Part shown: piece by piece, positions 9,402 through 48,568 of the stretch
Numbering within the stretch: the stretch's first letter is position 1
Layout of the letters: every line of letters begins with the position of its first letter
From: a virus
DNA length: 49,994 nucleotides
Direction: 5' to 3' (one strand)
Virus record (IMG/VR): IMGVR_UViG_3300048591_000787
Location: 1-49,994 of that record
Program-made: the position numbers and the translations under genes
Notes under the pieces: generated by a model
The model's database searches: none
Told to the model about the DNA's origin: nothing
The model's input: the letters and a program-made list of their open reading frames with translations, nothing else

Positions 9402-9551
9402 ATGGATACAGCAGATGACCTTGATGGGTGTGAGTTAGATTTCACCGAAAACCCAACGGACGACGACCTTATCACATGGCTGGTTCTCTTTCAAGATGCC
9501 GACGATGAAATTTTCCTAGCCGATCAGTGGAACGAGTTGTTCAATGCGTGA
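9402..9551 (+). CDS. Acidic small protein, 49 aa
   Basis: ATG at 9402 follows a perfect AGGAGG. The product is very acidic (DDLDGCELDFTE, PTDDDLITWLVLFQDADDE) and could act as a nucleic-acid mimic or an inhibitor, but this is only a composition-based idea. It overlaps the endolysin start by 8 bases (ATGCGTGA), so it is coupled to lysis gene expression. Confidence 0.65.
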   Translation: MDTADDLDGCELDFTENPTDDDLITWLVLFQDADDEIFLADQWNELFNA

Positions 9552-10383
9552 TATTGGAATAGCTAATCGTTTGCGTGCATATGGTTTGAGTGTTGTAGAG
9601 GTTAATGGATGGCAGTCTAGAGGTTCTTCTGCTTTCGATCCCAAGGGGTCTCTTGACCACCATACCGCAGGGGCCGCATCAGGAAACGCCCCATCGTTGG
9701 GGGTTTGTATCAATGGCCGCAAAGATCTACCGGGACCATTGTGCCATGTTCTGTTGGCTCGCGACAACACATGCTATGTTATAGCTAGCGGTAAAGCAAA
9801 TCATGCTGGAAGCGGTGGATGGCGGGGCTTGTCGGGCAATTCCAGCGTGTATGGTCTTGAGCGAGAAAATACTGGTACAGAACCATGGCGCCCAGATCAG
9901 CATTTGGTTGCTGCCACAGTCCATGCTGCTTTGTTAGACAATCCAGCACTTGTTCCTAATATATGCCGTCACGCTGAGTGGACACGCAGGAAGCCAGACT
10001 CCCATTCTGTTAATGGCAATGATTTGCGTGCATTGGTGAATGCAGTGTATGAACGTAGATTGCACACACCACCACCACCACCACCACCACCACCACCACC
10101 ACCACCAGCACCACCACCAGTACCAGGCGCATCATTCCTAGCTGGCATTGCAGCAGCGGCACGAAGCAAACAAACCCTACGCATTGGAGATAGTGGTGCT
10201 GCTGTTAAGGATTTGCAAAGCCATCTAAACCGCGAGATGAACAATGCTCTCAGCGTAGATGGTTCTTTCGGCACAAGGACTGAAAATGTACTACGACTAT
10301 ACCAAAAGTCGCGTGGGCTTGAGGCTGATGGTGTTGCTGGCTTCCTTACTTGGAGTCATTTACTGGCTGAAGCGTTCAATTGA
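9544..10383 (+). CDS. lysA: Endolysin: N-acetylmuramoyl-L-alanine amidase with peptidoglycan-binding domain, 279 aa
   Basis: The amidase_2 (type 2) fold is marked by SLDHHTAG (zinc His about residue 39-40), a central ENTG segment and a late CRHAEWTRRKPDSH block that supplies further zinc/catalytic residues. It would cut the amide between MurNAc and L-alanine. A run of prolines from CCA repeats (about residues 175-192) joins it to a C-terminal PG_binding_1 domain (RIGDSGAAVKDLQSHL, VDGSFGTRTENVLRLYQ). No signal peptide, so it depends on a holin; holin-like membrane proteins occur at 18757. Overlaps the 49-aa ORF upstream. Confidence 0.9.
   Translation: MRDIGIANRLRAYGLSVVEVNGWQSRGSSAFDPKGSLDHHTAGAASGNAPSLGVCINGRKDLPGPLCHVLLARDNTCYVIASGKANHAGSGGWRGLSGNSSVYGLERENTGTEPWRPDQHLVAATVHAALLDNPALVPNICRHAEWTRRKPDSHSVNGNDLRALVNAVYERRLHTPPPPPPPPPPPPPAPPPVPGASFLAGIAAAARSKQTLRIGDSGAAVKDLQSHLNREMNNALSVDGSFGTRTENVLRLYQKSRGLEADGVAGFLTWSHLLAEAFN
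10065..10125 (+). repeat. CCA trinucleotide repeat encoding a polyproline linker
   Basis: An almost unbroken run of CCA codons (interrupted only by GCA) encodes the linker between amidase and wall-binding domains of the endolysin. Such a run is prone to slippage and length variation. Confidence 0.85.
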
Positions 10384-11431: not shown

Positions 11432-11657
11432 CATCATCAATGAAATCCACCACTGACACCACTTCTTGCCCATTAGCAAATACATTGCAATGAGGAACTA
11501 ACATATTAAGAGTTTCAATTGCATTGCCAAATATAGCCAATGCCAACAATGGTGAGACCCCTCCCAAATCTATACTCAGTAGCTCTTCTTCACTGGAAAG
11601 AGTGATGGTGATTATTTGAAACCCAAAATCAAATTCTTCTGTTTCAGTATTACTCAT
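11424..11657 (-). CDS. Hypothetical acidic protein, 77 aa
   Basis: ATG at 11657 overlaps the metallophosphoesterase stop (ATGAGTAA), with GGAAGG just upstream, so the longer upstream frame was rejected. Acidic beta protein (TETEEFDFGFQIITITLSSE, split here; ANGQEVVSVVDFIDDDE). The pattern NVFANGQEV resembles CFANGVLLEL in the next gene, hinting at paralogy. Function unknown. Confidence 0.6.
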   Translation of the reverse strand: MSNTETEEFDFGFQIITITLSSEEELLSIDLGGVSPLLALAIFGNAIETLNMLVPHCNVFANGQEVVSVVDFIDDDE

Positions 11658-12996
11658 CACATGGCCTTCCGTTGGGATCAACTGTTGAACGAAATGATTC
11701 ACCCCTAAAAAGAGCGTGTCCCTTGTTGATAAGAACGGGTTCAACATGAACCCTTTGAAGATTTTCTGGTTCATACCAAATAATGAAAACACCTTGTTGC
11801 CATTTCTCTCGACTTACAGGTTTACCGGTAGATCCAATTCCCCCGTGAGACGAAGGAACCAACCCATCAACACGGCACAAGCAGCCAGGAGACCCCGAAT
11901 ACACAATCTTGTGTTCTGATCCCACATCTACGGTTGCACACGCTAGGGACTGTTTATGATCATGTCCAAAAATGGTAGAAGTGAATTGCAACGCTTGATG
12001 GTTTTTGGTTGCGGCGACGCCTGGAGCACCTGAAGCTACTCCGTGGATAAAACGTAGCGATGGAGATGCCCAGTACACCCCATGTGGATACGGATCTGTA
12101 GTTTCTATACCATAGTCTTCATATCTGCATAAGTGTGATAATGCTAAAACAGGCTCTGATTCAAATGCTCTAGTAATTCCTAGTAAGTCGCTAGCCTTAT
12201 CTGTTAGATACTTTTCCAGACGAGCTTCGTGGTTGCCGTGTAGTTGCACAATGGTTGCGTTTGGAGCAATTTCACGTTCAATTGCCAGGTGTGTGGCGTA
12301 GCGATTGATGTTGAGCTGTAGAAGCCCCTTATAGCCCCCTAGAGAACGATGTGACGAGAATTCAGCTAGGTCAAGGTCATCCCCATGGTTGACGATGAGA
12401 TCTACGCTGTAAAGGGCTTCTAGGCGCCCTAGAAGCTGATAGGCGATATCCAGCGCAGCTTCATCATGAATTGTGTGCAACTCGCCTTGAGGATCTTGGA
12501 AATAACCAGTCTGTGTGTCGGGAAGGCTTACTGCTAGATGCCAACCCTTTGGCTTCTTCGCTTTCTCGGTTTTGGGTATTTTTATTTTGAATGGCCCAAT
12601 ATCTGCCTGAACCAATTTTGGGCCAAGATGTGAAGTTGGTGCAACTTCAACAGTATGTGTTGTTGCTTCTTTCTCAACTTGTACATTTACACCATCAATC
12701 TTTTCCCACCCTGGATAACGCTTGGTGGTTATAGCAACTTTGCGTATGTTCCCAATCTCCACAGCAGAATTCAACACTTCAGCCAACTGTTCCATTTCTG
12801 GGTTATCTGAAGTGAACTGGAATTTGGTAGCGCAGTCCCAATATCGTTGACCATATCTAGCCAACGTACTGTAAGATACAAGTGGCAATCCTTGATCTTC
12901 CAGAATATCTAGGATTTCACTAGCCCTTTTACCTTCTTCCCACAATGTTTGCATCAACTCTTTGTTGGGATGATCAGCAACACCACGTATTGTCAT
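11650..12996 (-). CDS. Calcineurin-like metallophosphoesterase with N-terminal HTH, ~448 aa
   Basis: Motifs in order: LPDTQTGY, NHGDDLD (GD-like metal ligand), LHGNHEARLEK (GNHE), a later FIHG, and FGHDHKQ (GHxH). These define a calcineurin-like phosphoesterase, probably a nuclease or nucleotidase using two metals. The first ~60 residues contain an HTH-like pair (TLWEEGKRASEILDIL, YSTLARYGQRYW), which could give DNA binding. Start at ATG 12996 has AGGA 6 bases upstream; a TTG at 13071 gives a longer option. It is large and heads the minus operon. Confidence 0.8.
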   Translation of the reverse strand: MTIRGVADHPNKELMQTLWEEGKRASEILDILEDQGLPLVSYSTLARYGQRYWDCATKFQFTSDNPEMEQLAEVLNSAVEIGNIRKVAITTKRYPGWEKIDGVNVQVEKEATTHTVEVAPTSHLGPKLVQADIGPFKIKIPKTEKAKKPKGWHLAVSLPDTQTGYFQDPQGELHTIHDEAALDIAYQLLGRLEALYSVDLIVNHGDDLDLAEFSSHRSLGGYKGLLQLNINRYATHLAIEREIAPNATIVQLHGNHEARLEKYLTDKASDLLGITRAFESEPVLALSHLCRYEDYGIETTDPYPHGVYWASPSLRFIHGVASGAPGVAATKNHQALQFTSTIFGHDHKQSLACATVDVGSEHKIVYSGSPGCLCRVDGLVPSSHGGIGSTGKPVSREKWQQGVFIIWYEPENLQRVHVEPVLINKGHALFRGESFRSTVDPNGRPCDE

Positions 12997-13071
12997 ACAC
13001 TGTCCTGGTGATAGGCGTATTGATATATCTTTGCAATTGGGCAGGTCGCGAGCCGGTCCGCTGTAGTTCAA

Positions 13072-13085
13072 CGTCGTTGACGACG
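13072..13085. promoter_or_regulatory. Perfect 14-bp palindrome-with-spacer at the divergent start
   Basis: CGTCGT-TG-ACGACG (13072-13085) ends directly at the ATG of the + strand ORF at 13086 and lies 75 bases upstream of the phosphoesterase ATG at 12996. It has the shape of a dimeric regulator's operator for both directions. Confidence 0.4.
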
Positions 13086-13184
13086 ATGTTTTTGATTATA
13101 CCCGACGAAATCCGTAAAACAATCAAGACGCTACGGCGTAGGTTTCGGAACCCCAAGCGACGGGGCGAAGGTGGTGATGGATGA
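13086..13184 (+). CDS. Small basic protein, 32 aa
   Basis: ATG at 13086, no Shine-Dalgarno, immediately after the palindrome, so it may be a leaderless gene. The product (MFLIIPDEIRKTIKTLRRRF then RNPKRRGEGGDG) is very basic. Its stop overlaps the next small ORF by 8 bases (ATGGATGA). Confidence 0.4.
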   Translation: MFLIIPDEIRKTIKTLRRRFRNPKRRGEGGDG

Positions 13185-13269
13185 TCTGATTTTCCTTGAA
13201 GAGGTGCCGTGTTACGGTTTCAGGACAGATGATCCATGCGGTCACGAGCCGCCCTCCCCCACCGGGTGA
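13177..13269 (+). CDS. Small protein, 30 aa
   Basis: ATG at 13177 follows AAGGTGG. Product MDDLIFLEEVPCYGFRTDD then PCGHEPPSPTG. It overlaps the 32-aa ORF, a spacing seen throughout this genome, but 30 codons are too few to be sure. Confidence 0.4.
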   Translation: MDDLIFLEEVPCYGFRTDDPCGHEPPSPTG

Positions 13270-13319
13270 AGTGGGTACGGTGTGAACCCCGCGACCTTAG
13301 TAGTCCATGAGGTTGACGC

Positions 13320-13700
13320 AGATGCCGTAAGAGGGCGAGGGCCACCACGCGGGAGAGGACGCTTCCCACCACAAGGGGCCAGGGGAGAGGACCCCTATAA
13401 CGCTAGCTATGCGATAATAGCGATCAGGCAGTAGGCGGTATACACGGGCAGCCGTGCCGCCACATATTGTTGTTACTGCTCTGAACATTGCGCTGTCGGC
13501 GCTGCACAGTCCATGTTGTGCTGGTTGGGACAAGGTGCTACAACAACACCCCCAACACAGGACATCGGCTGTTACAGCATTGCCCTGTAGGAAACCTCGA
13601 CACGAGAAATACTACTACTGCTTAGGGGCTTTACACACTGTGTAGGGTCGCCTAAGCAGAAAGTGTTCCTGACACGATACGGTAAGTTGGCGGGTTGGTT
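13320..13700 (+). ncRNA. Structured non-coding region (candidate ncRNA), ~380 nt
   Basis: No convincing ORF exists between 13270 and 13753. Several stable stems are visible: AGGGG-AGAGGA-CCCCT (13381-13396), CGCTA..TAGCG (13401-13422), a bulged 10-bp GC stem GGCGG-tata-CACGG-GCAG-CCGTG-CCGCC (13434-13461), and a 9-bp stem CTGCTTAGG/CCTAAGCAG (13618-13626/13651-13659) enclosing TACACA-C-TGTGTA. Its base composition is GC-richer than flanking genes. It could be a phage-encoded structured RNA, a long leader, or an origin; the exact ends are guesses. Confidence 0.4.
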
Positions 13701-13712
13701 CTTCAAGGCATC

Positions 13713-13718
13713 TATAAA
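13713..13718 (+). promoter_or_regulatory. Possible -10 element before the 13754 gene
   Basis: TATAAA at 13713-13718, about 36 bases before the ATG at 13754; a TTGGCG at 13687 is 20 bases upstream, longer than ideal. Weak support for a promoter of the sigma factor operon. Confidence 0.25.
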
Positions 13719-13753
13719 AAAATGAAGTGGTAGTAGTGAGTTGGGAGTGTACC

Positions 13754-13984
13754 ATGACAGTAATATCTTCTTCTGGCAAGAATGGACCTAGGCGTCCCAA
13801 ACGCCAATGGTTGGCGCCAGCGCCTGTTTTTGAGACTGGCAATGAACGGAAACGTAAAGAAATTGATGAGGAGATGCGGGAGCGTGGTGTGAAGCCTTAC
13901 GCTTCTACTCGTGATTTTCGTAGAAGGCAGGGAATTGCTAGACACTTGGCTTTGAGGCCGGGGAATAAGGATTTGGATTTCTGA
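13754..13984 (+). CDS. Basic hypothetical protein, 76 aa
   Basis: ATG at 13754 follows GGGAG. The product is strongly charged and basic (GKNGPRRPKRQWLAP, NERKRKEIDEEMRERG, RDFRRRQGIARH), consistent with binding nucleic acid or RNA polymerase. It directly precedes the sigma factor gene (44-base gap), so it may be a partner or regulator, which is inferred from position only. Confidence 0.65.
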   Translation: MTVISSSGKNGPRRPKRQWLAPAPVFETGNERKRKEIDEEMRERGVKPYASTRDFRRRQGIARHLALRPGNKDLDF

Positions 13985-14028: not shown

Positions 14029-14775
14029 GTGGCTAAACGAAAGAATGCTGACGATTTGTGGGAAAGATTCTATTCAGGTGATGATCGTGCGCTGAATGAT
14101 CTTGTTAAACATTATTCTTATCTTGTTGACAAGATCGTGAATATCATGGCGGCTGGTTTGCCAACATATGTTGACAAAGATGATTTGTATTCCGAAGGCA
14201 TGATTGGCCTTATGGATGCTATTATGAAGTTTACTGACAAAGGATATCAGTTCTCTACATATGCCCCATTTAGAATTCGTGGGGCGATTCTAGATTTCTT
14301 GAGAAAGAACGATTGGGCCACTCGTGCCCTGCGGTCGAAGCATCGTCAATTGGAACAGGTCATTGATGATCTTTCAGCCAAAAATGGCGAAGTGCCCCAC
14401 ATAAATGATGTTGCTGAATACTTGGAAGTTGATGTTGAGTCATTGCATCAGATCATGGCAGAGTCTTCGTGGGCCTCCCATATTTACCTTGATGAAATGG
14501 TTTCTGAAGATTCTGGTGAAATGTTTTCTGCGTGGGATCTTATTGAAGATGTCCAGGTGACAGATACATCCTTAGATTATGAAGATCTTATGGAACGTTT
14601 GAGTGATACTATGTATGAGTTGAGTGAGCAAGAGCGCAGCGTGTTTGCCATGTACTACATGAAGGGCGTTTCTCTGAAAGAGATCGGAGATATTTTAGGA
14701 GTCACTGAGTCTCGTGCTTGCCAGATCCACACTAGGACTTTGGACAAAATCAGATCCTCCTGGTCTGTCGTTTGA
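14029..14775 (+). CDS. RNA polymerase sigma factor, FliA/WhiG-like, 248 aa
   Basis: GTG at 14029 follows GGAG. Region 2 is complete (LVKHYSYLVDKIV, DLYSEGMIGLMDAIMKF, QFSTYAPFRIRGAILDFLR with the basic -10-binding end WATRALR), a region 3 helix set follows (EVPHINDVAEYLEV) and region 4 ends it (LSEQERSVFAMYYMKGVSLKEIGDILGVTESRACQ, split across two helices). The lack of region 1.1 and its length match FliA/WhiG-type group 3 sigma factors. It probably redirects host RNA polymerase to phage late promoters; which promoters is unknown. Confidence 0.92.
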   Translation: MAKRKNADDLWERFYSGDDRALNDLVKHYSYLVDKIVNIMAAGLPTYVDKDDLYSEGMIGLMDAIMKFTDKGYQFSTYAPFRIRGAILDFLRKNDWATRALRSKHRQLEQVIDDLSAKNGEVPHINDVAEYLEVDVESLHQIMAESSWASHIYLDEMVSEDSGEMFSAWDLIEDVQVTDTSLDYEDLMERLSDTMYELSEQERSVFAMYYMKGVSLKEIGDILGVTESRACQIHTRTLDKIRSSWSVV

Positions 14776-14863: not shown

Positions 14864-17800
14864 ATGTCTGAGTTTCTGTCCTTCACATTGCCCGATTCAT
14901 TTGTAGATGAATACAAAGATCGTCACATCGAATGGGGTTTCGATATTGGTGGAGGCAATTCTCTTGCAGAACTCATCTATGTCGACAAGTATTCTGCTCT
15001 AAGAGAAGATGGCACCAAGGAACGATGGTATGAAACTGTTCGACGTGTAGTTGAAGGGTACTATTCGATCCTCAAAGATCATTGTATTCGCAATCGTACC
15101 CCATGGAATGACTTCAAAGCTCTTGCTTCAGCCAAAGATGCTTACGAGCGGATCTTCACGTTTAAGTGGTGTCCTCCTGGTCGTGGGCTACAACATATGG
15201 GTAGAGACATTATTCATGAAACGCAAGACTCGTCCCCATTACAGTCCTGTGCATTTCTTTCAACATCTAAGTTGTCTCATCATTCAGCCAAAGAGGCCAC
15301 GGGTCCGTTTGTATTGATGATGGAAATGTCGATGACTGGGATTGGAGTGGGATATGATCTATTAGGAGCAGGTCGCCTTACTATTCATCAGCCCTTAGAT
15401 GACACAGAGCGGTTTGTGGTTCCCGATACCAGAGAGGGGTGGGCTCAGTCGGTCGGAAAGTTACTGGAGACATTCTTCTTCAAGAATCGTTCTCGTTTAG
15501 AATTCGATTATTCTGAAATTCGTCCTTCAGGAGCATTGCTGAAGACATTTGGTGGGCGTGCTTCTGGTCCAGGTCCGTTAATAACTCTTCATGAATCATT
15601 GGTTGAGCAGTTCAGCGGAAGAGCCGGTGAGTTAATCACGTCGCGAGACATTCTAGATGTGATGAACAAGATCGGTAGCGCAGTTGTCGCTGGTGGAGCG
15701 AGGCGCTCTGCTCAGCTAGCTCTTGGTCTTAGTGATGACGAAGACTTTATTTCAGCTAAAGACTGGAATCTTGAAGTTAACAAGGCACGGACCGATCCCA
15801 AAACTGGTTGGGCGCATAATTCCAACAATTCAGTATGTCTAGATATTAATCATAGTACAAATGACTATATTGATAATATCGTAGTTAATGGTGAGCCTGG
15901 GTTTGTGTGGTTGGATGTGATACGAGCGCACAGCAGATTGATCGACCCACCAGATGATAAAGACTATCGAGCGATGGGGGTGAATCCATGTTTTAGTGGA
16001 GATACATTCATTGCTGTCGCTGATGGACGCAATGCTGTATCCATTCGGGAACTTGCTGAATCTGGCGATGATATTCCTGTATATTCTCTGAACACTGTCA
16101 ATGGTGATGTAGAGATTAAATGGGCCAGAAATCCACGTAAGACGCGCGAGAACGCTGCAATGGTAGAAATTCATCTACAGGACGGTACTTCTCTTAAAGT
16201 GACCCCAGACCACAAGTTTGTATTGCGAGATGGTACTATGAAGAAGGCCATGAACTTGGAGCCTGGGGATTCCTTGCCCGCCTTTTCTAAACGACTAGAG
16301 CCAATCAAGCCGGGATCTAGCGACTACTATCGTTTGCACACTAATGTAGTTGATCCCACTCAACGCACGTTTGAACACAGGCTAATTGCTCAGTTCCATA
16401 ATCCAGATGGTTGGGATGCGCTATATAATGTGAATAAAACATCTGGATGGATCAATGGCGGATTGATTGTTCATCATAAGGATTATGATCCTTTGAACAA
16501 TAGGCCAGACAATTTAGAGGTCATGACACATTCTGCCCATGCTAAGCTGCATGGCAGTCACGATAATCGTGGTGCTAATAACCCTATGTATGGCAAGAGG
16601 CATAGCCCAGCAACCAAAGCAAAGATTGGTGCTAAAACTGCTGAGCGATTCAGTACAGAAGATCAGCGTCGGGCTCATGGTTGTGCAGTGAAAGCTGGAT
16701 TGACTGATGAGTCGCGTCGTGCCATGAGTGAGGCTCGTAAGCGTGCCAATACTAAGTATTATCTAGAGCAAGAAGCAAAAACTGATCTTGATACAATGTG
16801 GATTGATGGGACCCTTCGTGCTGTAAAGTCTTGTATTATTTGCGAGAAGGAAATGGTTTTAGCATGGAGATTTCGACATGCTGTATTTTGCTCACATTCC
16901 TGTCACAATAAACATGAGGTAGCAATACAGAAGCGTAATATTGGATTGCGTGCTGCACATGAAAAAAAGTCTGCTGACAATTTAACATTACAAATTGAAT
17001 GCTATTTGGATCTTGTAGACTCATTGGGGCGGAACCCATTACGCAAAGAGTGGGAAGGTGAATGTAGGAGTCGTAAAGTCCCTCACCGATTCCAAAAAAA
17101 TACATCTAATCCCAATATTCCAAAATGCTTTTCTCATCTAAAAGAGATGGCTTTGTCCTACAATCATCGCGTTGTAAGCGTTACACATCTTGATGAATGC
17201 GAGGATGTTTACAACCTAACTGTTGATGACTATTCAACTGTTGGGGTTGTTACAAGTGTTGAGCATGGCTTTAGTGGAATATTTACATTCCAATGCAGCG
17301 AGCAGGCACTTGAGCATACAGAATGTTGTACGTTGGTTGAAACTTTTCCTCATAAGCATGAAACTTATGAGGATTACCGTGAGACGTTGAAGCACGCTTA
17401 CCTGTATGGAAAGGCTGTTACCTTACTTCCTACACGTTGGCCTGAAACTAACGAAGTCATGGCGCGCAATCGTCGTATTGGATGTTCTATTAGTGGATTG
17501 GCTGAATTTGTGGAAAGTCGTGGGTGGGATGAATTGCGCCAGTGGATGGATGATGGCTACTCTTTTCTAGAGCATCGTGATCGTAAGTATTCAGAATGGC
17601 TTGCGGTACGTGAGTCTATCAAGCGAACAAGCGTGAAGCCTTCTGGTACAACATCTTTGTTGACGCATTCTACTCCTGGAGTACACTGGCCCGTGGCTAC
17701 TGGTCACTATATTCGCAGAGTACGATTCAACCGCACTAATCCGCTGGTAGAGCGTTTGATCGAAGCTGGGTATGAAGCCGAGCCTGCTGATGGAGATCCA

Positions 17801-18184
17801 GATTATACAGTTGTAGTTACATTTATCACTAGTGGTCCAGATATTCGCAACGAGCGACAGGTAAGTATTTGGGAAAAGGCGGAATTGGCTGCCATGGCAC
17901 AACGCTGGTGGTCAGATAACTGTGTGTCTGCCACAATAACGTTCACTCCAGAAGAACGCTATCAGATTGAACCTCTGTTGTCTTCCAAAAAAGGCCAATT
18001 CAAGACCCTCTCCTTCTTGCCGCTGTACGAAGAGGCCACTTACTCTCAACAACCTTTTGAGAAGATTGCTGAGAATGGTGTGGTAGAATCATACCTTGCA
18101 AACAAGCAGCGCCTTGATCTGTATACAACTGGCATTGCAGCGGCTGGTGACAAGTTTTGTGACAACGATACTTGTACTATATAG
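14864..18184 (+). CDS. nrdJ: Adenosylcobalamin-dependent ribonucleotide reductase (class II, monomeric RTPR type) with intein, 1106 aa precursor
   Basis: ATG follows AGGAG. The host protein is residues 1-375 plus 811-1106 (671 aa when spliced), the size of Lactobacillus-type triphosphate reductase. Conserved features: early Cys129 (LQSCAFLS), GVGYDLLGAG, GGARRSAQLALG, then after splicing NP-CSEQALEHTECC, and the C-terminal shuttle pair CDNDTC (Cys1099, Cys1104). The spacing of 11 between Cys811 and the second Cys of HTECC and 5 between the terminal Cys fits the Cys408/Cys419 and Cys731/Cys736 pattern of the L. leichmannii enzyme. Needs host-supplied B12, no oxygen, so works aerobically or not. 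Supplies dNTPs. Confidence 0.93.
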   Translation: MSEFLSFTLPDSFVDEYKDRHIEWGFDIGGGNSLAELIYVDKYSALREDGTKERWYETVRRVVEGYYSILKDHCIRNRTPWNDFKALASAKDAYERIFTFKWCPPGRGLQHMGRDIIHETQDSSPLQSCAFLSTSKLSHHSAKEATGPFVLMMEMSMTGIGVGYDLLGAGRLTIHQPLDDTERFVVPDTREGWAQSVGKLLETFFFKNRSRLEFDYSEIRPSGALLKTFGGRASGPGPLITLHESLVEQFSGRAGELITSRDILDVMNKIGSAVVAGGARRSAQLALGLSDDEDFISAKDWNLEVNKARTDPKTGWAHNSNNSVCLDINHSTNDYIDNIVVNGEPGFVWLDVIRAHSRLIDPPDDKDYRAMGVNPCFSGDTFIAVADGRNAVSIRELAESGDDIPVYSLNTVNGDVEIKWARNPRKTRENAAMVEIHLQDGTSLKVTPDHKFVLRDGTMKKAMNLEPGDSLPAFSKRLEPIKPGSSDYYRLHTNVVDPTQRTFEHRLIAQFHNPDGWDALYNVNKTSGWINGGLIVHHKDYDPLNNRPDNLEVMTHSAHAKLHGSHDNRGANNPMYGKRHSPATKAKIGAKTAERFSTEDQRRAHGCAVKAGLTDESRRAMSEARKRANTKYYLEQEAKTDLDTMWIDGTLRAVKSCIICEKEMVLAWRFRHAVFCSHSCHNKHEVAIQKRNIGLRAAHEKKSADNLTLQIECYLDLVDSLGRNPLRKEWEGECRSRKVPHRFQKNTSNPNIPKCFSHLKEMALSYNHRVVSVTHLDECEDVYNLTVDDYSTVGVVTSVEHGFSGIFTFQCSEQALEHTECCTLVETFPHKHETYEDYRETLKHAYLYGKAVTLLPTRWPETNEVMARNRRIGCSISGLAEFVESRGWDELRQWMDDGYSFLEHRDRKYSEWLAVRESIKRTSVKPSGTTSLLTHSTPGVHWPVATGHYIRRVRFNRTNPLVERLIEAGYEAEPADGDPDYTVVVTFITSGPDIRNERQVSIWEKAELAAMAQRWWSDNCVSATITFTPEERYQIEPLLSSKKGQFKTLSFLPLYEEATYSQQPFEKIAENGVVESYLANKQRLDLYTTGIAAAGDKFCDNDTCTI
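15989..17293 (+). mobile_element. Intein with HNH homing endonuclease inside nrdJ, 435 aa
   Basis: It begins at Cys376 (CFSGDTF, block A) and has the TxxH block B motif (TPDHKFV, Thr447-His450). The centre carries an HNH nuclease (HHKDYDPLNNRPDNLEV, from residue ~536) and NUMOD3-like segments (NNPMYGKRHSPATKAKIG). The C-terminal end is CEDVYNLTVDDYSTV followed by GIFTFQ, then Cys811 of the extein. The last two residues are Phe-Gln instead of His-Asn, so splicing would need Gln cyclisation. Insertion is directly before the extein cysteine equivalent to the thiyl-radical residue. Confidence 0.9.
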
Positions 18185-23016: not shown

Positions 23017-23023
23017 CCGTCAG

Positions 23024-23065
23024 AAACTCCATAGTATCCTCTAATCGGAGGTCGCTATGGAGTTT
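23024..23065 (+). promoter_or_regulatory. Hairpin that occludes the start and ribosome binding site of the next gene / T-tailed terminator
   Basis: AAACTCCATAG (23024-23034) pairs perfectly with CTATGGAGTTT (23055-23065). The latter contains the start codon ATG (23057) of the 123-aa gene and is followed by a T6 run. Within the loop, CCTC (23038-23041) can pair with GAGG (23048-23051), masking the Shine-Dalgarno. So one stem could terminate transcription and block translation. Confidence 0.65.
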
Positions 23066-23428
23066 TTTGGTGTTCGCGCAGATATCTCTGTTACAGAGAT
23101 TACTCCAGATTCACACTGGGAATCTCGTCATGATCTCTACAAGAAGGTGAAGCGATCTAGGGGTTGGTACATGTCACTTGATCCAGAGCAGCGGGCAGCT
23201 TTAGCGGAGAAGGTTCGTGGTTCCCTGGCTGTAATGGTTGATAAGGTTGATGAGTGGTTGCCAGATGCTTTTGTGGGCGACTTAGTGGGAGAAACTATCA
23301 GAATTGAATTACAGCTTGTTTTGGCTGACATTGATTCCGCCGTTGCCAAACAACGACACTCCTCATCTTATAATCTCAACAAGATGGCTGCTAAGGTTGA
23401 AGCGATGTTGGAAGAGATGGACGAATGA
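23057..23428 (+). CDS. Hypothetical protein, 123 aa
   Basis: ATG 23057 follows CGGAGG, both located in the predicted hairpin. Product is helical (DLYKKVKRSRGWYMSLDPEQ, DEWLPDAFVGDLVGETIRIELQLVLADI in two parts). ATGA overlap with the RuvC-like gene suggests they work together; may be a partner or regulator of the resolvase, which is speculation. Confidence 0.6.
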   Translation: MEFFGVRADISVTEITPDSHWESRHDLYKKVKRSRGWYMSLDPEQRAALAEKVRGSLAVMVDKVDEWLPDAFVGDLVGETIRIELQLVLADIDSAVAKQRHSSSYNLNKMAAKVEAMLEEMDE

Positions 23429-34071: not shown

Positions 34072-34104
34072 AAGGGTCCGACTGGCATTGCTGGTCGGAC
34101 CTTT
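34072..34104 (+). terminator. Intrinsic terminator after the major capsid gene
   Basis: AAGGGTCCGAC (34072-34082) pairs with GTCGGACCTTT (34094-34104) with a single G-T wobble and an 11-base loop, followed by GTTGTT. Strong and well placed. Confidence 0.75.
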
Positions 34105-37427: not shown

Positions 37428-37610
37428 ATGTCATGGGCTATTCCCAACAAAGTTACGGCCAACTATCAAGAACAGGCTCGACTTATGGTGGCGTTGTTTA
37501 CTGAGTCGATTACAGGGGCTAATAAGAATGCTTCTGAATCCTACAACTCTGGGACGTGGGCTTCCAATGAAGTAGGTAGTCAAACTGCCGTTGACTGGGC
37601 CACGCTGTGA
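37428..37610 (+). CDS. Tail protein, N-terminal fragment-like, 60 aa
   Basis: Starts MSWAIPNKVTANYQEQARLM, matching the opening pattern of the two next proteins (IPNE..A.Y..QA). It then ends early (STGTWAS..VDWATL). It could be a full small protein or the remains of a resident fibre gene cut where the GC-rich block begins; its stop overlaps the next GTG (37607). Confidence 0.55.
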   Translation: MSWAIPNKVTANYQEQARLMVALFTESITGANKNASESYNSGTWASNEVGSQTAVDWATL

Positions 37611-38341
37611 GCTACACGATCCCCAACGAGGCAGATGCCCCCACCTACCCGGCTCAAGCGGAGCCGGACGCCGGAGACTTCCGCTCGCTCGGGCACGCCG
37701 CCTCGGGGTCGGGTGTGCTGTACGGGCTGCAAGTGGCGCCCGGCAACTCGGGGGTCGACCGGTCGGTGGTGATCGGGTACGGCCGTCTCGTGTATTTCGG
37801 GTGGGACCATGTCGCGCACCCGAAGACGACGATCGCATCCGGTGCGATCGTCGCTGATGGCACCCATCCTCGGTGGGCGCTGATCCACTCGACGGACTCT
37901 GGTCGGACGCTGACTGTGTCGTTGGGGACTGCCGCGGCTAACCCGGTGTTCCCCGCAGTCGCCGAGCTGGAGGTGGTGCTGGCAGCGATCTACCTCCCGG
38001 CCGCTGCGACATCGATCACTGCGGCGAACATCGTCGACAAGCGGGTGCTACAGACGGGGTCTCTGGTGTCCACAGCGACGTATCAGCCTCGGGCGCTCCC
38101 GCCATCTGCCCCGAAGCGGGCCTCGTACGCCCGATTTGGTGCCCCCGGATACGACGGCACCAACAATCTCGCGGCGAACACGGCCTACACGCTGTACGAC
38201 TCGTCGGACACCAACTATGGACCGGTGCGGCGGCCACATCTCAGCTCGTCGCTTACATCGACGGGCTCAGTATTACGCCTAACGGTGGGACCATCACCGT
38301 GGATTGGCACCCTAGCGGCATTTTCACATTGTGACGAGTGA
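37607..38341 (+). CDS. Tail-fibre protein with N-terminal attachment module; likely frameshifted C-terminus, 244 aa as read
   Basis: GTG 37607 overlaps the previous stop. First ~150 residues (IPNEADAPTYPAQAEPDAGDF, then GLQVAPGNSGVDRSVV, GTHPRWALIHSTD) match the start of the next protein, a probable tail-attachment module. From 38219 the reading becomes implausible (RRPHLSSSLTSTGS). Reading on in the -1 frame gives TGAAATSQLVAYIDGLSITP, NGGTITVDWHPSGIFTL and a TGA at 38332, resembling the C-termini of other tail proteins here. So one base (an A after TATGGA) seems lost, or a programmed shift occurs. Confidence 0.7.
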   Translation: MSYTIPNEADAPTYPAQAEPDAGDFRSLGHAASGSGVLYGLQVAPGNSGVDRSVVIGYGRLVYFGWDHVAHPKTTIASGAIVADGTHPRWALIHSTDSGRTLTVSLGTAAANPVFPAVAELEVVLAAIYLPAAATSITAANIVDKRVLQTGSLVSTATYQPRALPPSAPKRASYARFGAPGYDGTNNLAANTAYTLYDSSDTNYGPVRRPHLSSSLTSTGSVLRLTVGPSPWIGTLAAFSHCDE

Positions 38342-38359
38342 CGACGAGAGGATAAGTCG

Positions 38360-40207
38360 ATGACCGTGTTCACAGTGCCGAACGAGGCGTCTGCCACATA
38401 CGGGCCCCAAGCCGAATTAGACGCGCAGGATTTCGCAGCGTTGTCCTATGCGCTGTCCGGCTCGAGTGTGGTGGGTATCGGCTGTCAGGTGACTCCTGGG
38501 AACACCGGCGTGGACCGGTCACTTGTTGTGAGCGCCGGGCGGGTGTCGATCGGGGGGGCGGGTGCGGTCGAGATTTCTAAGACCACGTTCGCGTCCGGAT
38601 CGGTGACTGCAGATGGCACACATCCGCGGTGGGTGCTTGTCGTGTCTGACGGTACGACCGTGGCACTGAATGTGGGGACTGCCGCAGCGGCGCCCGTGTT
38701 TCCCACCATCACAGCGTTCACGGTGCTGCTCGCTGCCGTGTACGTCCCTGCCAACGCTGCTTCGATCACATCAGCGAACATCATCGACAAAACAGCGATG
38801 GCATCGTTGACTTGGCAGATGCCGGCCCAGGCTCGTGTTCCTGCACGCCAAACGTCCGCAACGTTCCGGCGTGGCACGTTCGCAGCTCACGGCCCGCCAG
38901 GATCGAACGGTGCCGTGCTCACGAATGGCGTGGAATCGACACTTTTCGATTCAGGTGACACGGCCAAGGGCGGGTTCAGTGGCCTCACATCCTCGCCCGG
39001 CCAGGTGAAGCGTATAGCGCTATTCGTGCTGACATCCGGGGCGAACGACGAATGGACCGCCATCGAACTCCCCCGGCTGAAGATCTACTACGACGGGAAC
39101 ACGACGGCTGATATTGATATGCCGCTTCGCCGGTGGTGCGGGACGACAGGCCTGACTTCGACCGATGTGGTCCCGGATGTCCGGCACCCACTGTGGACGG
39201 TGTACAGCAAGAACGACAGTGGGTTTGGGGGCCGGTTGCTCTCGTTCACCCTGCACCTGCCGATCCCTTTCTCCACGCGCTGCAAGGTGACCTTTACCCC
39301 GATCACGGGAGTTGACCCACTCATGTGCTGGTCGTTGGTCGATTACGTCGTTGGCGACAGCGAAGGGTTCGGGGATCGCAAACTGCGTACCATCTGGTGG
39401 GATCACGGTTCCGAGTCATCTTCGGGGGACCGCGCCGGGACGAACGACACGACGGGTCGCAACGATCAGACAGAGGTGTCCGTCGGTGAATATCACTGGT
39501 GGGATTCCGGGTGGGGGTCCCGTTTGTATGGCTCGCTCACAAGTGGTGCTACGACGGTTGAGGTCTACAACGGCCCCGCGTTCACGCGCAACCTGCCCGT
39601 CGGCGTGAAAGATCCGCGGACGGGCACGGCGATCACAAACACGACGACGGCGCTCGCCCCCGATTGCTACGCCATGATCGACTCCGAGGTCGTGAAGATC
39701 ACTGCAATCTCGGGTAACACTCTGACGGTCCAACGGGGCCAGACTCATCCGATTACGGGTGCGGCCACGACGGCGACATCTCACGCCGATCAGGCGATGC
39801 TGAAGCGGATCGTCGGGCCAACCAAGGTTGAGCTGTGGCAACTCGGCCTCTCATCTGTCGGATCTACCGCGTCGTTCATGGAGGGTCCGATCGGCCTGTT
39901 TTGCGACGCGGATTCGGCGCCCCTTTCCGGTGGGCAGCTCCCGACGCTTGGGTCTGGTGGTACCGAAGACTTCTTTGGGGTCGGCTGGTACGCTCTTTCG
40001 GCCAACAACGCGTCCGATACGGGTAACCCCGAGCACGGATGCCACCATCAGAGACCGTGGACCGCCTGCTTCTACCGATGGTTCAACCGTGTGTGGGCTG
40101 ACGATTGCCTAGCACTAACGTCCCAGAACGGCGAGTCGGGGCAAGGGTCAGGCCCCCCGGGGTCCACGTATACGGGCTCCACGTTGTGGGTCTACACGCC
40201 TCACTGA
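38360..40207 (+). CDS. Tail-fibre protein with DUF2961/GH172-like glycoside hydrolase domain, 615 aa
   Basis: N-terminal ~155 residues repeat the attachment module of the preceding gene (VPNEASATYGPQAELDAQDF, QVTPGNTGVDRSLVV). Residues ~200-300 and ~490-600 resemble DUF2961/GH172: LKIYYDGNTTADIDMPL, LSFTLHLPIPFSTRCKVTF, SFMEGPIGLFCD, GGTEDFFGVGWYAL and a late PWTACFYRWF. Glu508 and Glu536 are candidate catalytic residues. A beta domain (about 395-480, IDSEVVKITAISGNTLTVQRG in part) is inserted. Some GH172 enzymes cleave D-arabinofuranosides of the mycobacterial wall. A wall-polysaccharide depolymerase on the tail is a strong hypothesis. Confidence 0.65.
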   Translation: MTVFTVPNEASATYGPQAELDAQDFAALSYALSGSSVVGIGCQVTPGNTGVDRSLVVSAGRVSIGGAGAVEISKTTFASGSVTADGTHPRWVLVVSDGTTVALNVGTAAAAPVFPTITAFTVLLAAVYVPANAASITSANIIDKTAMASLTWQMPAQARVPARQTSATFRRGTFAAHGPPGSNGAVLTNGVESTLFDSGDTAKGGFSGLTSSPGQVKRIALFVLTSGANDEWTAIELPRLKIYYDGNTTADIDMPLRRWCGTTGLTSTDVVPDVRHPLWTVYSKNDSGFGGRLLSFTLHLPIPFSTRCKVTFTPITGVDPLMCWSLVDYVVGDSEGFGDRKLRTIWWDHGSESSSGDRAGTNDTTGRNDQTEVSVGEYHWWDSGWGSRLYGSLTSGATTVEVYNGPAFTRNLPVGVKDPRTGTAITNTTTALAPDCYAMIDSEVVKITAISGNTLTVQRGQTHPITGAATTATSHADQAMLKRIVGPTKVELWQLGLSSVGSTASFMEGPIGLFCDADSAPLSGGQLPTLGSGGTEDFFGVGWYALSANNASDTGNPEHGCHHQRPWTACFYRWFNRVWADDCLALTSQNGESGQGSGPPGSTYTGSTLWVYTPH

Positions 40208-40219
40208 AAGGATCATCCC

Positions 40220-40690
40220 TTGGCAGCGATCAGCTACACGACACCGGGCACGCCATCCACAATACTGTCGTCGGCGTCGACCGGCCTGGCGAACAACGCC
40301 TACGCCGGGTCCGGGACTGCGTCCGTGACCGTCACGGCGTCCAACAACAAAACAACTCCGAAGCTGTTCGGCTGGTTCGAATTGTACGTGCACGACTTTG
40401 GGGGGACCCCCACCGACGGCGGATTTGTGACGCTGTTCCTCGCCACGTCCAACGATGGCACGACGTACGCTGACGGGCACGACGGATCTGTGGCGCCAGC
40501 GCTGGAACTGGCCGTGGGCACGTTCACGCTCCGTAACGTTGACGCGCCGCAGCGGCTGCATTTGTGGAACATTCCGCTACCGCCATTGCACTTCAAGCCG
40601 GTGTTGCTGAATAAGGCGGGCCAAACTCTAGTCGGGAATGGGACAGCCACCACGCTAGCCGTGGCGACTTACGACTATCAGGTGATCTAG
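40220..40690 (+). CDS. Tail/fibre accessory protein, 156 aa
   Basis: TTG at 40220 follows AAGGA. Ser/Thr/Ala-rich and beta-rich: STILSSASTGLANNAYAGSG, KLFGWFELYVHDFGGTP, GTTYADGHDGSVAPALELAV. Ends in a TAGTG overlap with the giant gene. It could form a capping or coat layer of the fibre; function unknown. Confidence 0.6.
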   Translation: MAAISYTTPGTPSTILSSASTGLANNAYAGSGTASVTVTASNNKTTPKLFGWFELYVHDFGGTPTDGGFVTLFLATSNDGTTYADGHDGSVAPALELAVGTFTLRNVDAPQRLHLWNIPLPPLHFKPVLLNKAGQTLVGNGTATTLAVATYDYQVI

Positions 40691-43600
40691 TGCTGCTGGA
40701 CCCGTCTAGGCGGTATGTCTCGCCGGGGGTGCTTCTCCGGCCCGACTGGGCCTCCAGTCTTACCGCCGATCTGGTCTTTGCGCTCGTCGGTAAGCGCGAG
40801 CTACTGACTGGCGCGTGTCTACTTCCGGCGCCTAACTCGCCAGGTCGCACAGCCGACCGCAATTTGGGGTACCCGCAGCACAGGGGCCACGTCATCGCCG
40901 ACGGTACGTCATCCCCGGCAACGACCAATTCGGGGTGGTTCCTGCCGGGGTATATGCGCGGCACGACGCTGAGTACTACCCCGTTCCGGCGACTTGCCGG
41001 GTCGACCGACTACACCGTGTTCGTGTCTGCGCGGTTTGGGACCGCCGCCAGTTACGGCAAAGTGCTGTCGTTCTGGCACGACCAATCAGACACGTCGGCG
41101 CAGCCTTACGTGACATTCTCCCTAGGTTCCGGCGGCTCCAATCTGGGCGACTTTGAACATAGTTGGTCTGACACGACGGGCAATATCCAGTCGTCGTATT
41201 CCCCATGGGGGACCCCGATCGTATGGGACCAAGGTGTACGGGCGGACACGACCTACGCCTTCACGCGATCATCTGGCACTTTCAAGTGGTTCCGTAACGG
41301 CGTCCAATTCGGGGCGGACATTACTGGGCAGTCCACGACCCCGGTGGGGTTTCGTGCGCTGACAGAGAACCCCGCCATCGGCATCCGCTCGCCTAATGCG
41401 GGCAGTGAGATGGTGTCGGGCGAGATGCCGGTAATTCTCGTGTGGAATCGGGTACTAACACCCGCCGAGATCCAGAGACTACACATCGACCCGCTGGCAT
41501 TCGTGGACACGCGGCCGCGGTTCCTTGGCCAGAATATGGCCGGGGTGCCGGTGACCATTTCGCCTAGTCTGTTCGTCAGCGCCACGGCCACATTCCCGAC
41601 GCCGGTGGTTCGTTTTGGCGGTTTCGCCGCGCCGTTCACTGTGCGTGTCTCGGCCGTGCGCGGCGGTCATCGGCTGCGCGGGGAGGGGTCCACCCCCGCG
41701 ACCCCTTCAGCGTTCACCTCGACCGCAACCTTCCCGACACCGACCGTCGCGCAGACCGTCACCCCCGCGGCGTTCGCGAACGGGTCGAGTTTCCCGACAC
41801 CGACTGTCGCGCAGACGATCACCCCCGCGGCGTTCACCTCGACCGCAACCTTCCCGACACCGACCGTCGCGCAGACGATCACCCCCGCGGCGTTCGCGAA
41901 CGGGTCGAGTTTCCCGACACCGACCGTGACCGTCGCGGGAGACACGTCGGTCGGCGTGTGGGAGATGCTGCCCATCCGCACCGAAGCCGAGCGTGCGGGC
42001 GGTGTGATCGGCGGTGAAGGGAAGCAGCATCCCCGCTCGATCGCTGTCGCACCATCCGACTCGGATGTCATCTGGCTTACCCATGACATCGGCGGTGTGT
42101 GGCGGTCCGCTGACGCCGGACGGTCATGGCAGAAGTGCCCGTGTCGGGGCATGCCGTTGTTGGCGATGGCGTCGATCGCTGTCGACCCGACCGACCCTGA
42201 CATCGCCCTCGTCATAGCGAACCACACCGTGCAGACACTCATGCCCGACAACCTCCAGGGCATCTATCGCACCGTCGACGGTGGCGACACATGGGCGCTG
42301 GTGCAGGCCACGATCGCTGACGCCGCCCAGTCGGAGACAGGCACCGGGTTCTCGCGCGAGGCCCAGTCGAACATCATCTGGGCAGACAGCAAGTGGTGGG
42401 CGTTCATCGACGGCTCCTCCGGTACGGTCTGGTCGTCGACGAACGGCACCTCTTGGACGGAACACACGGCGACGGGTATCACGGGCTGGGGGAACGTGTA
42501 CACGGTCGTGCCCGGGAGCACGAACGAGCTGCTTGTCGCGACCGGTGGCGGGCTGAAGAAGTGGAACACGTCCACCACCTCCTTTTCGTCTGTGGCCTCC
42601 CCGGGCGGGTCGCTGTGCTTGTGGATCGCTCGCGACCCGAACACTGCGGGCCGCTATTGGGTGGTGAAAGCCGCCGGGGAGAACAACTCGATCAACTCCG
42701 CGGTGTACCGCACTGACGATTACGGGTCGTCCTGGTCCTCTGCGGTGACGACCGCTCACGGCACAGGCACCCGATCCGTGCACGCGATCGATACCGGGAC
42801 GTCCACACGGCTCCTTACCCTCGCGAACGACGACGTGACCGGATCGGCTAAGTACGCCAGATGGTCTGACGATGTTGGTTCGACGTCGCCGACGTGGACG
42901 CAATGTAATGTGCGGGGTCGTCTCGGGACGGTCGAGGGCGACTTCGGAAAAGGCTGGCTGCTGTCCGGCGGCGCTGCTGCCACGTCGCATCCCGGGTCGG
43001 CGGTGTTCACCGGTACGACAGGCGTAGCGTTTTCTGAGGCAACGATCCTCCGCTCGACGGACGGCGGGAAATCATGGCGCTGGTCTGCTACCGGCTGGGG
43101 TGGGATGGCAGGCACCGGCTACGCCGGATCTGGTCTGCACTTCGACGGTGACACCGTGTCGCTCATGTTGCAGGACACCGGGTGGATCCGCTCAACGGAT
43201 GGCGGGGCGTCGTGGCGCGAGTATGACAAGCCTGCGGCCACTTACGGCGGAGCGAATCTGTACTCGGCGCTGTTCGATTCGGTGGGGGTGGTCGCAACCT
43301 CCGGCGAGAACTCAAAGGGTGTGTTCCGTCAGACGTGGACCACCGAGCCGGATGAGAACGCCTGGGTGGACATCACTCCAGGGTCGACCGCCCGCAACTA
43401 CCACCATCTGACGTTGCGAGGCGGCAGATGGTTCGTCGGCGGGTTCCGCACCCCGACAGCCGGGAAGACGTCGGCGACGTTGACGTCTGGTGACTGGTCG
43501 GGGATGCCCGTCGGCAGCTCCCCCTACTACGGGGAGCTGGTCGACTCGACCGACACCGAATTGTGGGCGCTTCGCACCTACGACGCGGGGACGGAACCGG

Positions 43601-45729
43601 CCACCCTGTACCGCAAGGTGTGGTGCACGACGACGATGGACGGCTCGACGTGGTCTGCTGCTTCTGCTTTCAACGTGATCGAGCGTGACGCCTACTTCCG
43701 GTCCCGGCCGGTGTTCGCCGCCACCGGAGCGTCCACGTTCATCGCTCCCTGCAACCGTGCGGGTGATTCGGGGAGCCTTCCCGCCGATCTCGGCGTCTAC
43801 ACGTTCACCGGTTCCGCTGGGGCGATCACCCCAACTACCCGACTCGGAGTCATCGAGGCGTTCGAGGCGGACAATGGCGCTCTGCCGTGGAACTACCCGA
43901 CGTACATCGCGATCGATCCCTCTGACACGGACGTGATCTATGTGGCGTTCGACGCCGTGAACGTCGACGTCATCTACCGCTCCGTGAACGGCGGGGCGTC
44001 ATGGGAGAATGTGTCGTCCGGATACCCGATCGGCGCGGTGCGAATGATGCGGGTGCACCCCGACACCGGCGATCTGTGGGTGTCAGGGATGCACGGCAAC
44101 TGGATCCTCCCCGGTCCGGTACCGGTCGGGTCGCTCACCGAGGCATCCACCGTGTCCGGCCCGGTGACGGTCGGCTACGCCGATGTGATCGACCAGCCCA
44201 CCGTGCTGCAAACCGCGTCCTCTCAGGGGGGTGTGAGCCCGGCGGCGATCACTCTGACGGACACGACGGTAGGGTCAACGCTGATCGCTGTGGTGCGGGC
44301 GTCGTCGACGGTGACGGTCGGTGCCCCGGCGGGGTGGACGGAGGGCGGGGCGTACTCCCCATCGAACCCTCAGCTCAAAGTGTTCTACCGGACCGCTACC
44401 GGAGACGGCTCCGACAACTTCTCGGCGACGCTGTCGGGTGCCGGGCAGTGGAACGTGCAGGTGATCGAAGCGACCGGGATCGCCGCCGCACCTTCCGACA
44501 CGGAGAACTCCACATCGTCCGGTGAAGTCGCATCCCCGGTGGATGTGACCAGGGCGGGCACCACTTCCGCCGGACTGGTCGTGATCGCAGCCGCCACGAA
44601 CGTCGGCAGCAACCCGACGATGGAAGGGTGTGCCGTCTCTGCCCTCGACGGCAACGGAGTTTACGGGCTCGCCTCCCAGGCCGGGATGGGGTCAGCGGTC
44701 TACTCGATGGTCGCCTACCGGGTGCAGACCGATGCCGTCGGCGCAGGCGAGGTGTCGGCCCGTCTGTCGTGGACGAACGCGGACACTTACCAGGTGAACG
44801 CGATGGCGTTGATCTGGCCGTTGTCGTCGGCCCCGGTTCAGGCAACCGTTCTTGCTAACGTCAATGTGTTTGGCTCCGCAACTGTACATCAAGCGATGCC
44901 AGCAAGTTCCACTACATCCATCAATACATTTGGTATACTCGCCGTTCATCAAATTGTTGATGTTGTTGCCATTACGCCTACAAATGCATTAGGGACCGTT
45001 GATTCTCATCAAGATGTGTCTGTCAACGCATTAGTCAATGCAACGTCATTTGGTTCTGTAATCGTCAACCAAACAATCCCGATTACAGTAATTACTTCGG
45101 ACGTTACCATTCCCATCCCAACAGTAGATGGTACTATTGTTCGCAGTGCAGATGCCATTACACATTCTAATACTCTAGGAGTACCAACTGTTCACCAAAC
45201 CGTGGAGATAACGGCTGTTACATCATCTGGTGCCTTCGGTGTTGCAAGCATTGGACAGATCATTGCAACAGATGGCGTTATTGCATCCCACACCCTTCCA
45301 GAGCCCATCGTTCATCAACAGGTATCGGTTGTTGGTGTTGTCAATAGCACTGTGTTTGGTACACATGATCTAGACGTGTCTGGGGTAGTTGAACCAACCG
45401 GGGTGGCAAATACTAATACTGTTGGCACTCCTACAATCCATCAAACTGTTCCGGTGATGGGCTTGGATAATGAGAATACTGTTGGGGCTCCTGCCTTTAA
45501 TCAGCAGATTTCCGTTACAGGAACATCTTCCAGCAATACATTTGGGACTGCAATCATTGGCCTAGGGGTAAGTGTTATTGGGGGGCCTTCCGTAAATGCC
45601 ATAGGAACAGTTCTGATTCACCAATCATTGCCGATTGGTGGGGTGGTTGGAAGTAATGTGTTTGGACTTCCCTATATTCCTGATGACCAAACAGAAAACT
45701 TCTTTTTCTTCTTCTTGGCAGGGTACTAA
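40690..45729 (+). CDS. Giant chimeric tail protein: LamG-like + Asp-box propeller + carbohydrate-binding-like + repeats, 1679 aa
   Basis: Residues ~1-275 look like a LamG/concanavalin-like domain (ADTTYAFTRSSGTFKWFRNG, VLVWNRVLTPAEIQRL without the first V). ~338-417 are 20-aa repeats (TPAAFANGSSFPTPTVAQTI). ~437-1150 hold many Asp-box (BNR) motifs such as SADAGRSW, TVDGGDTW, STDGGKSW, STDGGASW, SVNGGASW, i.e. a sialidase-like beta-propeller. ~1174-1380 is another beta domain (VGAPAGWTEGG, VFYRTATGDGSDNF). ~1384-1667 is about 14 repeats near 20 aa (NTFGT..VHQTV) and the end is FFFFFLAGY. Base composition turns from GC-rich to AT-rich near residue 1383. Confidence 0.75.
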   Translation: MLLDPSRRYVSPGVLLRPDWASSLTADLVFALVGKRELLTGACLLPAPNSPGRTADRNLGYPQHRGHVIADGTSSPATTNSGWFLPGYMRGTTLSTTPFRRLAGSTDYTVFVSARFGTAASYGKVLSFWHDQSDTSAQPYVTFSLGSGGSNLGDFEHSWSDTTGNIQSSYSPWGTPIVWDQGVRADTTYAFTRSSGTFKWFRNGVQFGADITGQSTTPVGFRALTENPAIGIRSPNAGSEMVSGEMPVILVWNRVLTPAEIQRLHIDPLAFVDTRPRFLGQNMAGVPVTISPSLFVSATATFPTPVVRFGGFAAPFTVRVSAVRGGHRLRGEGSTPATPSAFTSTATFPTPTVAQTVTPAAFANGSSFPTPTVAQTITPAAFTSTATFPTPTVAQTITPAAFANGSSFPTPTVTVAGDTSVGVWEMLPIRTEAERAGGVIGGEGKQHPRSIAVAPSDSDVIWLTHDIGGVWRSADAGRSWQKCPCRGMPLLAMASIAVDPTDPDIALVIANHTVQTLMPDNLQGIYRTVDGGDTWALVQATIADAAQSETGTGFSREAQSNIIWADSKWWAFIDGSSGTVWSSTNGTSWTEHTATGITGWGNVYTVVPGSTNELLVATGGGLKKWNTSTTSFSSVASPGGSLCLWIARDPNTAGRYWVVKAAGENNSINSAVYRTDDYGSSWSSAVTTAHGTGTRSVHAIDTGTSTRLLTLANDDVTGSAKYARWSDDVGSTSPTWTQCNVRGRLGTVEGDFGKGWLLSGGAAATSHPGSAVFTGTTGVAFSEATILRSTDGGKSWRWSATGWGGMAGTGYAGSGLHFDGDTVSLMLQDTGWIRSTDGGASWREYDKPAATYGGANLYSALFDSVGVVATSGENSKGVFRQTWTTEPDENAWVDITPGSTARNYHHLTLRGGRWFVGGFRTPTAGKTSATLTSGDWSGMPVGSSPYYGELVDSTDTELWALRTYDAGTEPATLYRKVWCTTTMDGSTWSAASAFNVIERDAYFRSRPVFAATGASTFIAPCNRAGDSGSLPADLGVYTFTGSAGAITPTTRLGVIEAFEADNGALPWNYPTYIAIDPSDTDVIYVAFDAVNVDVIYRSVNGGASWENVSSGYPIGAVRMMRVHPDTGDLWVSGMHGNWILPGPVPVGSLTEASTVSGPVTVGYADVIDQPTVLQTASSQGGVSPAAITLTDTTVGSTLIAVVRASSTVTVGAPAGWTEGGAYSPSNPQLKVFYRTATGDGSDNFSATLSGAGQWNVQVIEATGIAAAPSDTENSTSSGEVASPVDVTRAGTTSAGLVVIAAATNVGSNPTMEGCAVSALDGNGVYGLASQAGMGSAVYSMVAYRVQTDAVGAGEVSARLSWTNADTYQVNAMALIWPLSSAPVQATVLANVNVFGSATVHQAMPASSTTSINTFGILAVHQIVDVVAITPTNALGTVDSHQDVSVNALVNATSFGSVIVNQTIPITVITSDVTIPIPTVDGTIVRSADAITHSNTLGVPTVHQTVEITAVTSSGAFGVASIGQIIATDGVIASHTLPEPIVHQQVSVVGVVNSTVFGTHDLDVSGVVEPTGVANTNTVGTPTIHQTVPVMGLDNENTVGAPAFNQQISVTGTSSSNTFGTAIIGLGVSVIGGPSVNAIGTVLIHQSLPIGGVVGSNVFGLPYIPDDQTENFFFFFLAGY
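41701..41940 (+). repeat. Four 60-bp direct repeats in an A-B-A-B order
   Basis: Four consecutive 60-base units (41701, 41761, 41821, 41881) share TTCCCGACACCGAC and flanks; units 1 and 3 (CGTTCACCTCGACCGCAACC) alternate with 2 and 4 (CGTTCGCGAACGGGTCGAGT). Together they form two near-identical 120-bp blocks that encode the 20-aa repeats. Confidence 0.9.
44839..45690 (+). repeat. AT-rich 20-aa coding repeats (about 14 copies)
   Basis: Degenerate ~60-bp units encode the pattern N-T-h-G-x-x-x-h-H-Q-x-h (examples INTFGILAVHQIV, NTVGTPTIHQTV, NTFGTAIIGLGV). They resemble the GC-rich repeats upstream (FPTPTVAQTI) at protein level but not in base composition. Confidence 0.7.
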
Positions 45730-48538: not shown

Positions 48539-48568
48539 CACAACCCGGTTCCATTGAGCCGGGTTGTG
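48539..48568 (+). terminator. Intrinsic-type terminator after the tail tube gene
   Basis: CACAACCCGG (48539-48548) pairs perfectly with CCGGGTTGTG (48559-48568), loop 10 bases. T tract is short, so efficiency is uncertain. Fits a strong promoter/terminator unit for tube protein. Confidence 0.65.

Follow-up and report, generated by a model that had tools for sequence, protein, structure and literature searches.

The window analysed here is the complete 49,994-base record of an uncultured virus, and it contains about 650 bases of DNA without genes but rich in hairpins, directly ahead of a sigma-factor gene. The stretch is bounded on the left by a divergent metallophosphoesterase gene (11650-12996, minus strand), which was assigned by a match to PHROG 20266 (E = 1.6e-44) and by alignment. 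Alignment with related contigs placed the start of this gene at ATG 12996 and not at TTG 13071, and the gene-free gap therefore extends from 12997 to 13753. On the right lies p76, a 76-residue open reading frame (13754-13984, plus strand; codon score 0.25) with GGGAG at 13743-13747. p76 had no family match in Pfam or PHROGs; it was absent from the relatives and was seen only in this phage. Two plus-strand genes follow, one for an RNA polymerase sigma factor (14029-14775; Pfam Sigma70_r2 and r4, PHROG 351) and one for a B12-dependent (class II) ribonucleotide reductase (RNR; 14864-18184) with an HNH-bearing intein. The intein interruption carries HNH and NUMOD3 motifs and is absent from the relative L002.

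We delimited the plus-strand gene-free stretch by codon usage, alignment, folding and GC content. Its boundaries, from approximately 12997 or 13105 to 13753, are wider than those of the initial annotation, and the proposed RNA part runs from about 13105 to either 13660 or 13753. All stop-to-stop frames of at least 40 codons within the stretch were scored against the phage's own codon usage, with 29 genes for training. The frames scored no higher than 0.05 bits per codon and were mostly negative, compared with 0.05-0.27 for the 29 reference genes. Pfam and PHROGs gave no convincing match in the stretch; the best PHROG match was a 40-residue minus-strand frame to a PHROG of unknown function (E = 0.0023), with a negative codon score. 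GC content in 60-base windows rose to 0.60-0.68 at 13200-13380, whereas the flank had 0.40-0.47. The initial annotation had described the stretch as lacking a gene and as differing in composition from its flanks, and both descriptions held.

At the left end, a promoter-like sequence (TTGTTT-16-TATAAT, 13095-13122, minus strand; consensus match only) points toward the phosphoesterase gene. Beside it is an inverted repeat of nine pairs, AACGTCGTTGACGACGATGTT (13070-13090, strand not assigned), which is a possible operator at the leftward promoter. In the relatives L043-L047, L049, L050 and L052, recurring GCGAC(A/C)GT / ACGGTCGC motifs ahead of the phosphoesterase gene overlap the leftward promoter-like site and are possibly operator or phage-sigma sites. 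No convincing plus-strand promoter was found in the stretch, where there were only weak candidates, including those for TTTACA-16-TAnnnT.

The folding energy of 13072-13740 was compared with dinucleotide shuffles and gave z-scores of -4.85 and -4.29 on the plus strand in two runs, and -3.34 on the minus strand. The interval 13270-13740, which is close to the one initially annotated, reached only z = -2.1. For calibration, 51 stretches of 500 nt from the same phage were folded on both strands (mean z -0.77, sd 1.39). On this scale 13110-13609 on the plus strand scored z = -3.2 and ranked 5 of 102. Similar values occur in other parts of the phage, coding parts included; the structure of the stretch is real, but it is not unique in this respect.

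Two GC-rich hairpins had been singled out by the initial annotation, and both are present on the plus strand. The hairpin at 13434-13461 has 10 bp (-15.4 kcal/mol), and the one at 13618-13659, initially described as shorter, has 19 bp with one bulge. The latter has a predicted energy of -26.4 kcal/mol on the plus strand and -17.0 kcal/mol on the minus strand, a difference of about 9 kcal/mol that arises because its G-U pairs form only in the plus-strand transcript. Among plus-strand 48-nt structures with GC below 0.56, it is the most stable in the window. The next-ranked plus-strand hairpins under the same GC limit (48523, 34060 and 23020) all sit at gene ends, with a U-run after that at 23020. 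No U-run follows the hairpin at 13618-13659. The location of similarly strong hairpins at gene ends suggests that it forms the 3' end of a transcript, and we propose it as a 3' end or terminator.

Two small plus-strand hairpins (13351-13367 and 13381-13397) each contain the repeat GGGAGAGGAC. A long-range helix was also predicted on the plus strand between 13611-13623 and 13725-13737, the arms being 85% complementary and the 3' arm lying just ahead of the p76 ribosome-binding site; the 161-nt fold surrounding this helix scored only z = -1.3. Elsewhere in the window, terminator-like strong long hairpins lie immediately past gene ends at 23024-23068, 34073-34104 and 48540-48568, two of the three without a clear U-run. 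No 48-nt hairpin in the window is more stable than the one at its extreme left end (34-81), with -36 kcal/mol on both strands.

The covariance-model search that the initial annotation had proposed was run with Rfam 15. No family matched in 12900-13900, even at E ≤ 10, and none matched anywhere in the window at gathering scores. The known large phage RNAs offer a partial comparison, with ROOL RNAs about 580 nt long. GOLLD members are often longer than 800 nt, and tRNA islands are frequent neighbours of both GOLLD and ROOL (PMC12286853). The stretch resembles these RNAs as a large, structured, gene-free phage region of comparable length, but it differs from them in having no covariance-model match at E ≤ 10 and in lying in a window without tRNA genes. 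Neither a tRNA nor a tmRNA was found in the gap, and the tRNA of the relative L048 sits outside its gap. No Rfam family matched within the gaps of the relatives. Cobalamin riboswitches lead many genes for B12-dependent enzymes, including class II RNR, and the operon here, which encodes a B12-dependent RNR, shares that context. However, the cobalamin riboswitch models of Rfam matched neither the stretch nor the gaps of the relatives. A known leader for class II RNR, as the initial annotation's structured leader for the RNR gene might have been, is therefore excluded at the level of Rfam models.

We searched IMG/VR for relatives with the sigma, phosphoesterase, RNR and terminase proteins and obtained ten records with the sigma gene. 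Two further IMG/VR scans added only contigs with a different arrangement or without such a gap. The order of a minus-strand phosphoesterase gene, a gene-free stretch and a plus-strand sigma gene was kept in eight of the ten. The remaining two were L052, with the same gene order and a longer, ORF-containing gap, and L051, which is cut at the contig end. None of the relatives' sigma genes had p76 beside it. Six of the eight gaps hold one element, which we call type A, and the other two hold a second element, type B. The window's stretch occupies the same position as type A, between the minus-strand phosphoesterase gene and the plus-strand sigma gene.

Type A is 261-276 nt long and lies on the plus strand in six contigs (L037:1160-1450, and the same gap in L034, L035, L036, L038 and L039), five of them with distinct sequences and the sixth a near copy. 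The distinct sequences share 81-91% identity. In 10 of 10 pairs this identity exceeded that of the neighbouring genes, by 7-13 points for the phosphoesterase gene, 2-13 for sigma and 0.4-5.5 for RNR. Single-base insertions and deletions argue that the element is not coding. A sigma-70-like promoter sequence (TTTACA/TTAACA-16-TAnnnT) stands at a fixed position ahead of it, and the sequence of the spacer varies.

Compensatory changes were found at six pairs in three stems of type A: three in H5, one of them with three pair types, two in H4 and one in H3. The outermost H3 pair is broken in two sequences. The arms of H5 were read directly from the alignment as TGAT-TGAGAT-ATCA in G005 and TGCG-TGAGATT-CGCA in G010, an automatic pattern check having matched an overlapping or unrelated place in these two. 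The stems were picked by eye where MAFFT had misplaced gaps. With stems chosen in this way and only five distinct sequences, the evidence that type A is a structured RNA, undescribed and absent from Rfam, is good but not overwhelming. Folding and RNAalifold on the alignment gave no excess thermodynamic stability for the element, and Rfam gave no match. Searches of the phage collection returned short chance matches only. A 16-base core pattern found no IMG/VR contigs beyond the same six, and in bacterial genomes the core had four 19-base matches, none extending into the element. We rejected type A as RNase P RNA, to which it has a by-eye likeness (GGAACGUCCGGGC, UAGAUGAA), and as SRP RNA, as the order and spacing of the motifs did not fit and no covariance model matched.

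Type B (L048:1764-2121, plus strand; L050:3114-3439, minus strand) is alignable over about 360 nt between L048 and L050 and has a near-identical core, TTAATGTCATCSGGCCTTGCCSGG; either strand of it may be the transcribed one. Its Smith-Waterman score was 254, whereas shuffled sequences averaged 153 and reached at most 204. These two contigs are the nearest to the window by RNR, with 68% and 74% identity. In L050 the element is followed by a free-standing HNH ORF, and this ORF and a second one lie between the gene-free part and sigma.

The window's stretch shares with type A the slot between phosphoesterase and sigma, the absence of a gene and the proposed direction toward sigma. However, type A is much shorter (261-276 nt against about 550-650) and has no sequence similarity to it, and type B, in the same slot, also has no similarity to it beyond the shuffled expectation. 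Smith-Waterman scores of the stretch against both types lay at the shuffled mean, and nhmmer recovered only the stretch itself. blastn against relatives, phages and plasmids returned only short chance matches. With neither sequence similarity nor a homologue, the stretch is tied to types A and B by position only.

Taking these results together, we put at about an even chance the reading that the stretch is a non-coding RNA on the plus strand, about 550-650 nt long, that occupies a conserved slot for RNAs. The reading draws on the missing coding signal, the stems, the plus-strand bias of the main hairpin, the conserved synteny and the covarying RNA of six relatives. The plus strand is favoured by its larger folding excess and by the G-U gain at 13618-13659. 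Against it stand the lack of a sequence tie to types A and B or of any homologue in the collections searched, z-scores matched elsewhere, and the want of a convincing plus-strand promoter or a U-run. Transcription would run along the plus strand, beginning near 13105 in the gap that separates the phosphoesterase gene from the divergent p76-sigma-RNR operon, and most transcripts would end at the 19-bp hairpin, perhaps with some read-through into the operon. In the relatives this slot is occupied by a shorter RNA that has covarying stems and a sigma-70-like promoter of its own; we therefore propose that the slot is a locus for small RNAs next to the phage sigma gene, in which the window's RNA may have diverged or been replaced. 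Probably, then, the stretch is a gene for a small RNA, or an RNA leader, whose sequence has diverged past recognition. We infer that the stretch is transcribed, where its transcript begins and ends, and that it shares a role with the RNA of the relatives. Its most likely role would be that of a regulatory RNA, made before the phage sigma factor takes over or while it does so, with transcripts of the host or the phage as its targets. The initial suggestion of a non-coding RNA or structured leader gains indirect support: in eight relatives the slot lacks coding sequence, and in six of these it contains a covarying RNA with a promoter-like sequence of its own, but the window's own sequence has no homologue in the collections searched.

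It is possible, though we think it unlikely, that the stretch acts only in cis as the untranslated 5' leader of p76-sigma-RNR, with the long-range helix tuning translation or elongation. The helix arm ends six bases ahead of the ribosome-binding site at 13743-13747, and the stretch lies immediately upstream of the operon with no U-run terminator in between. However, the RNA of the relatives has its own promoter-like site and precedes a sigma gene without p76, and no known riboswitch or leader matched; the weak z-score of the helix region also argues against a leader. Slightly less probable is a region of transcription control, made up of divergent promoters, operators and spacer in GC-rich DNA of foreign origin, its hairpins being incidental. 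A divergent gap is a likely place for promoters and operators, the left end carries the TATAAT promoter-like site and the inverted repeat, and comparable z-scores occur elsewhere in the window. Yet 650 nt is more than such a region needs, the 19-bp hairpin with its plus-strand-specific G-U pairs is exceptional in the window, and a covarying RNA occupies the same slot in the relatives.

A replication origin, which the initial annotation had offered together with a GC-skew check, is very improbable. The cumulative GC skew has its minimum at about 11.9 kb, and skew at 4-fold sites in the window switches from negative on the left of the stretch (~13 kb) to positive on its right whatever the gene strand, although only 226-300 sites per class are available on the left. 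In the relatives G005, G006 and G011, however, 4-fold-site skew follows gene strand and not side, tracking transcription, and the skew is suggestive in the window only. There are no iterons, DnaA boxes are at chance level with none in the stretch, and the stretch is GC-rich. The same GC content of 0.60-0.68, together with chained minus-strand frames (13300-13611 and 13126-13296) and the one weak PHROG match, could also indicate a protein gene from a GC-rich source that has decayed. Those frames have negative codon scores and no Pfam match, however, and on codon usage and the family searches we reject both a coding stretch and such a remnant, to which we assign almost no probability.

Beyond the plus-strand non-coding RNA itself, a broader proposal can be made tentatively. 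The slot may be dedicated to RNA in this phage lineage and hold at least three unrelated-looking structured RNAs (types A and B and that of the window) with a common job at the phage-sigma switch, forming a new class of phage RNA by position and mechanism and not by sequence. To our knowledge, phages have few known classes of structured RNA, and still fewer of these occupy a constant position next to a regulatory gene. Should the slot prove to be an RNA locus, type A, with its compensatory changes among five distinct sequences, would be an undescribed RNA family, and this would be a phage lineage in which an RNA changes in sequence but stays in place. Of the new findings, the firmest is type A of the relatives, not the window's own stretch.

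Two other features of the window were recorded. A 7.5-kb block at 37500-45000 has 60-70% GC, compared with about 43-45% for the phage, and gave DUF2961 and Sortilin/Vps10-type matches; a 60-base tandem repeat lies inside it at 41731-41927. The block looks acquired and perhaps encodes tail or host-contact proteins. At 9544-10383 there is an amidase/peptidoglycan-binding lysin, the linker of which is encoded by about 18 CAC repeats (a proline run).
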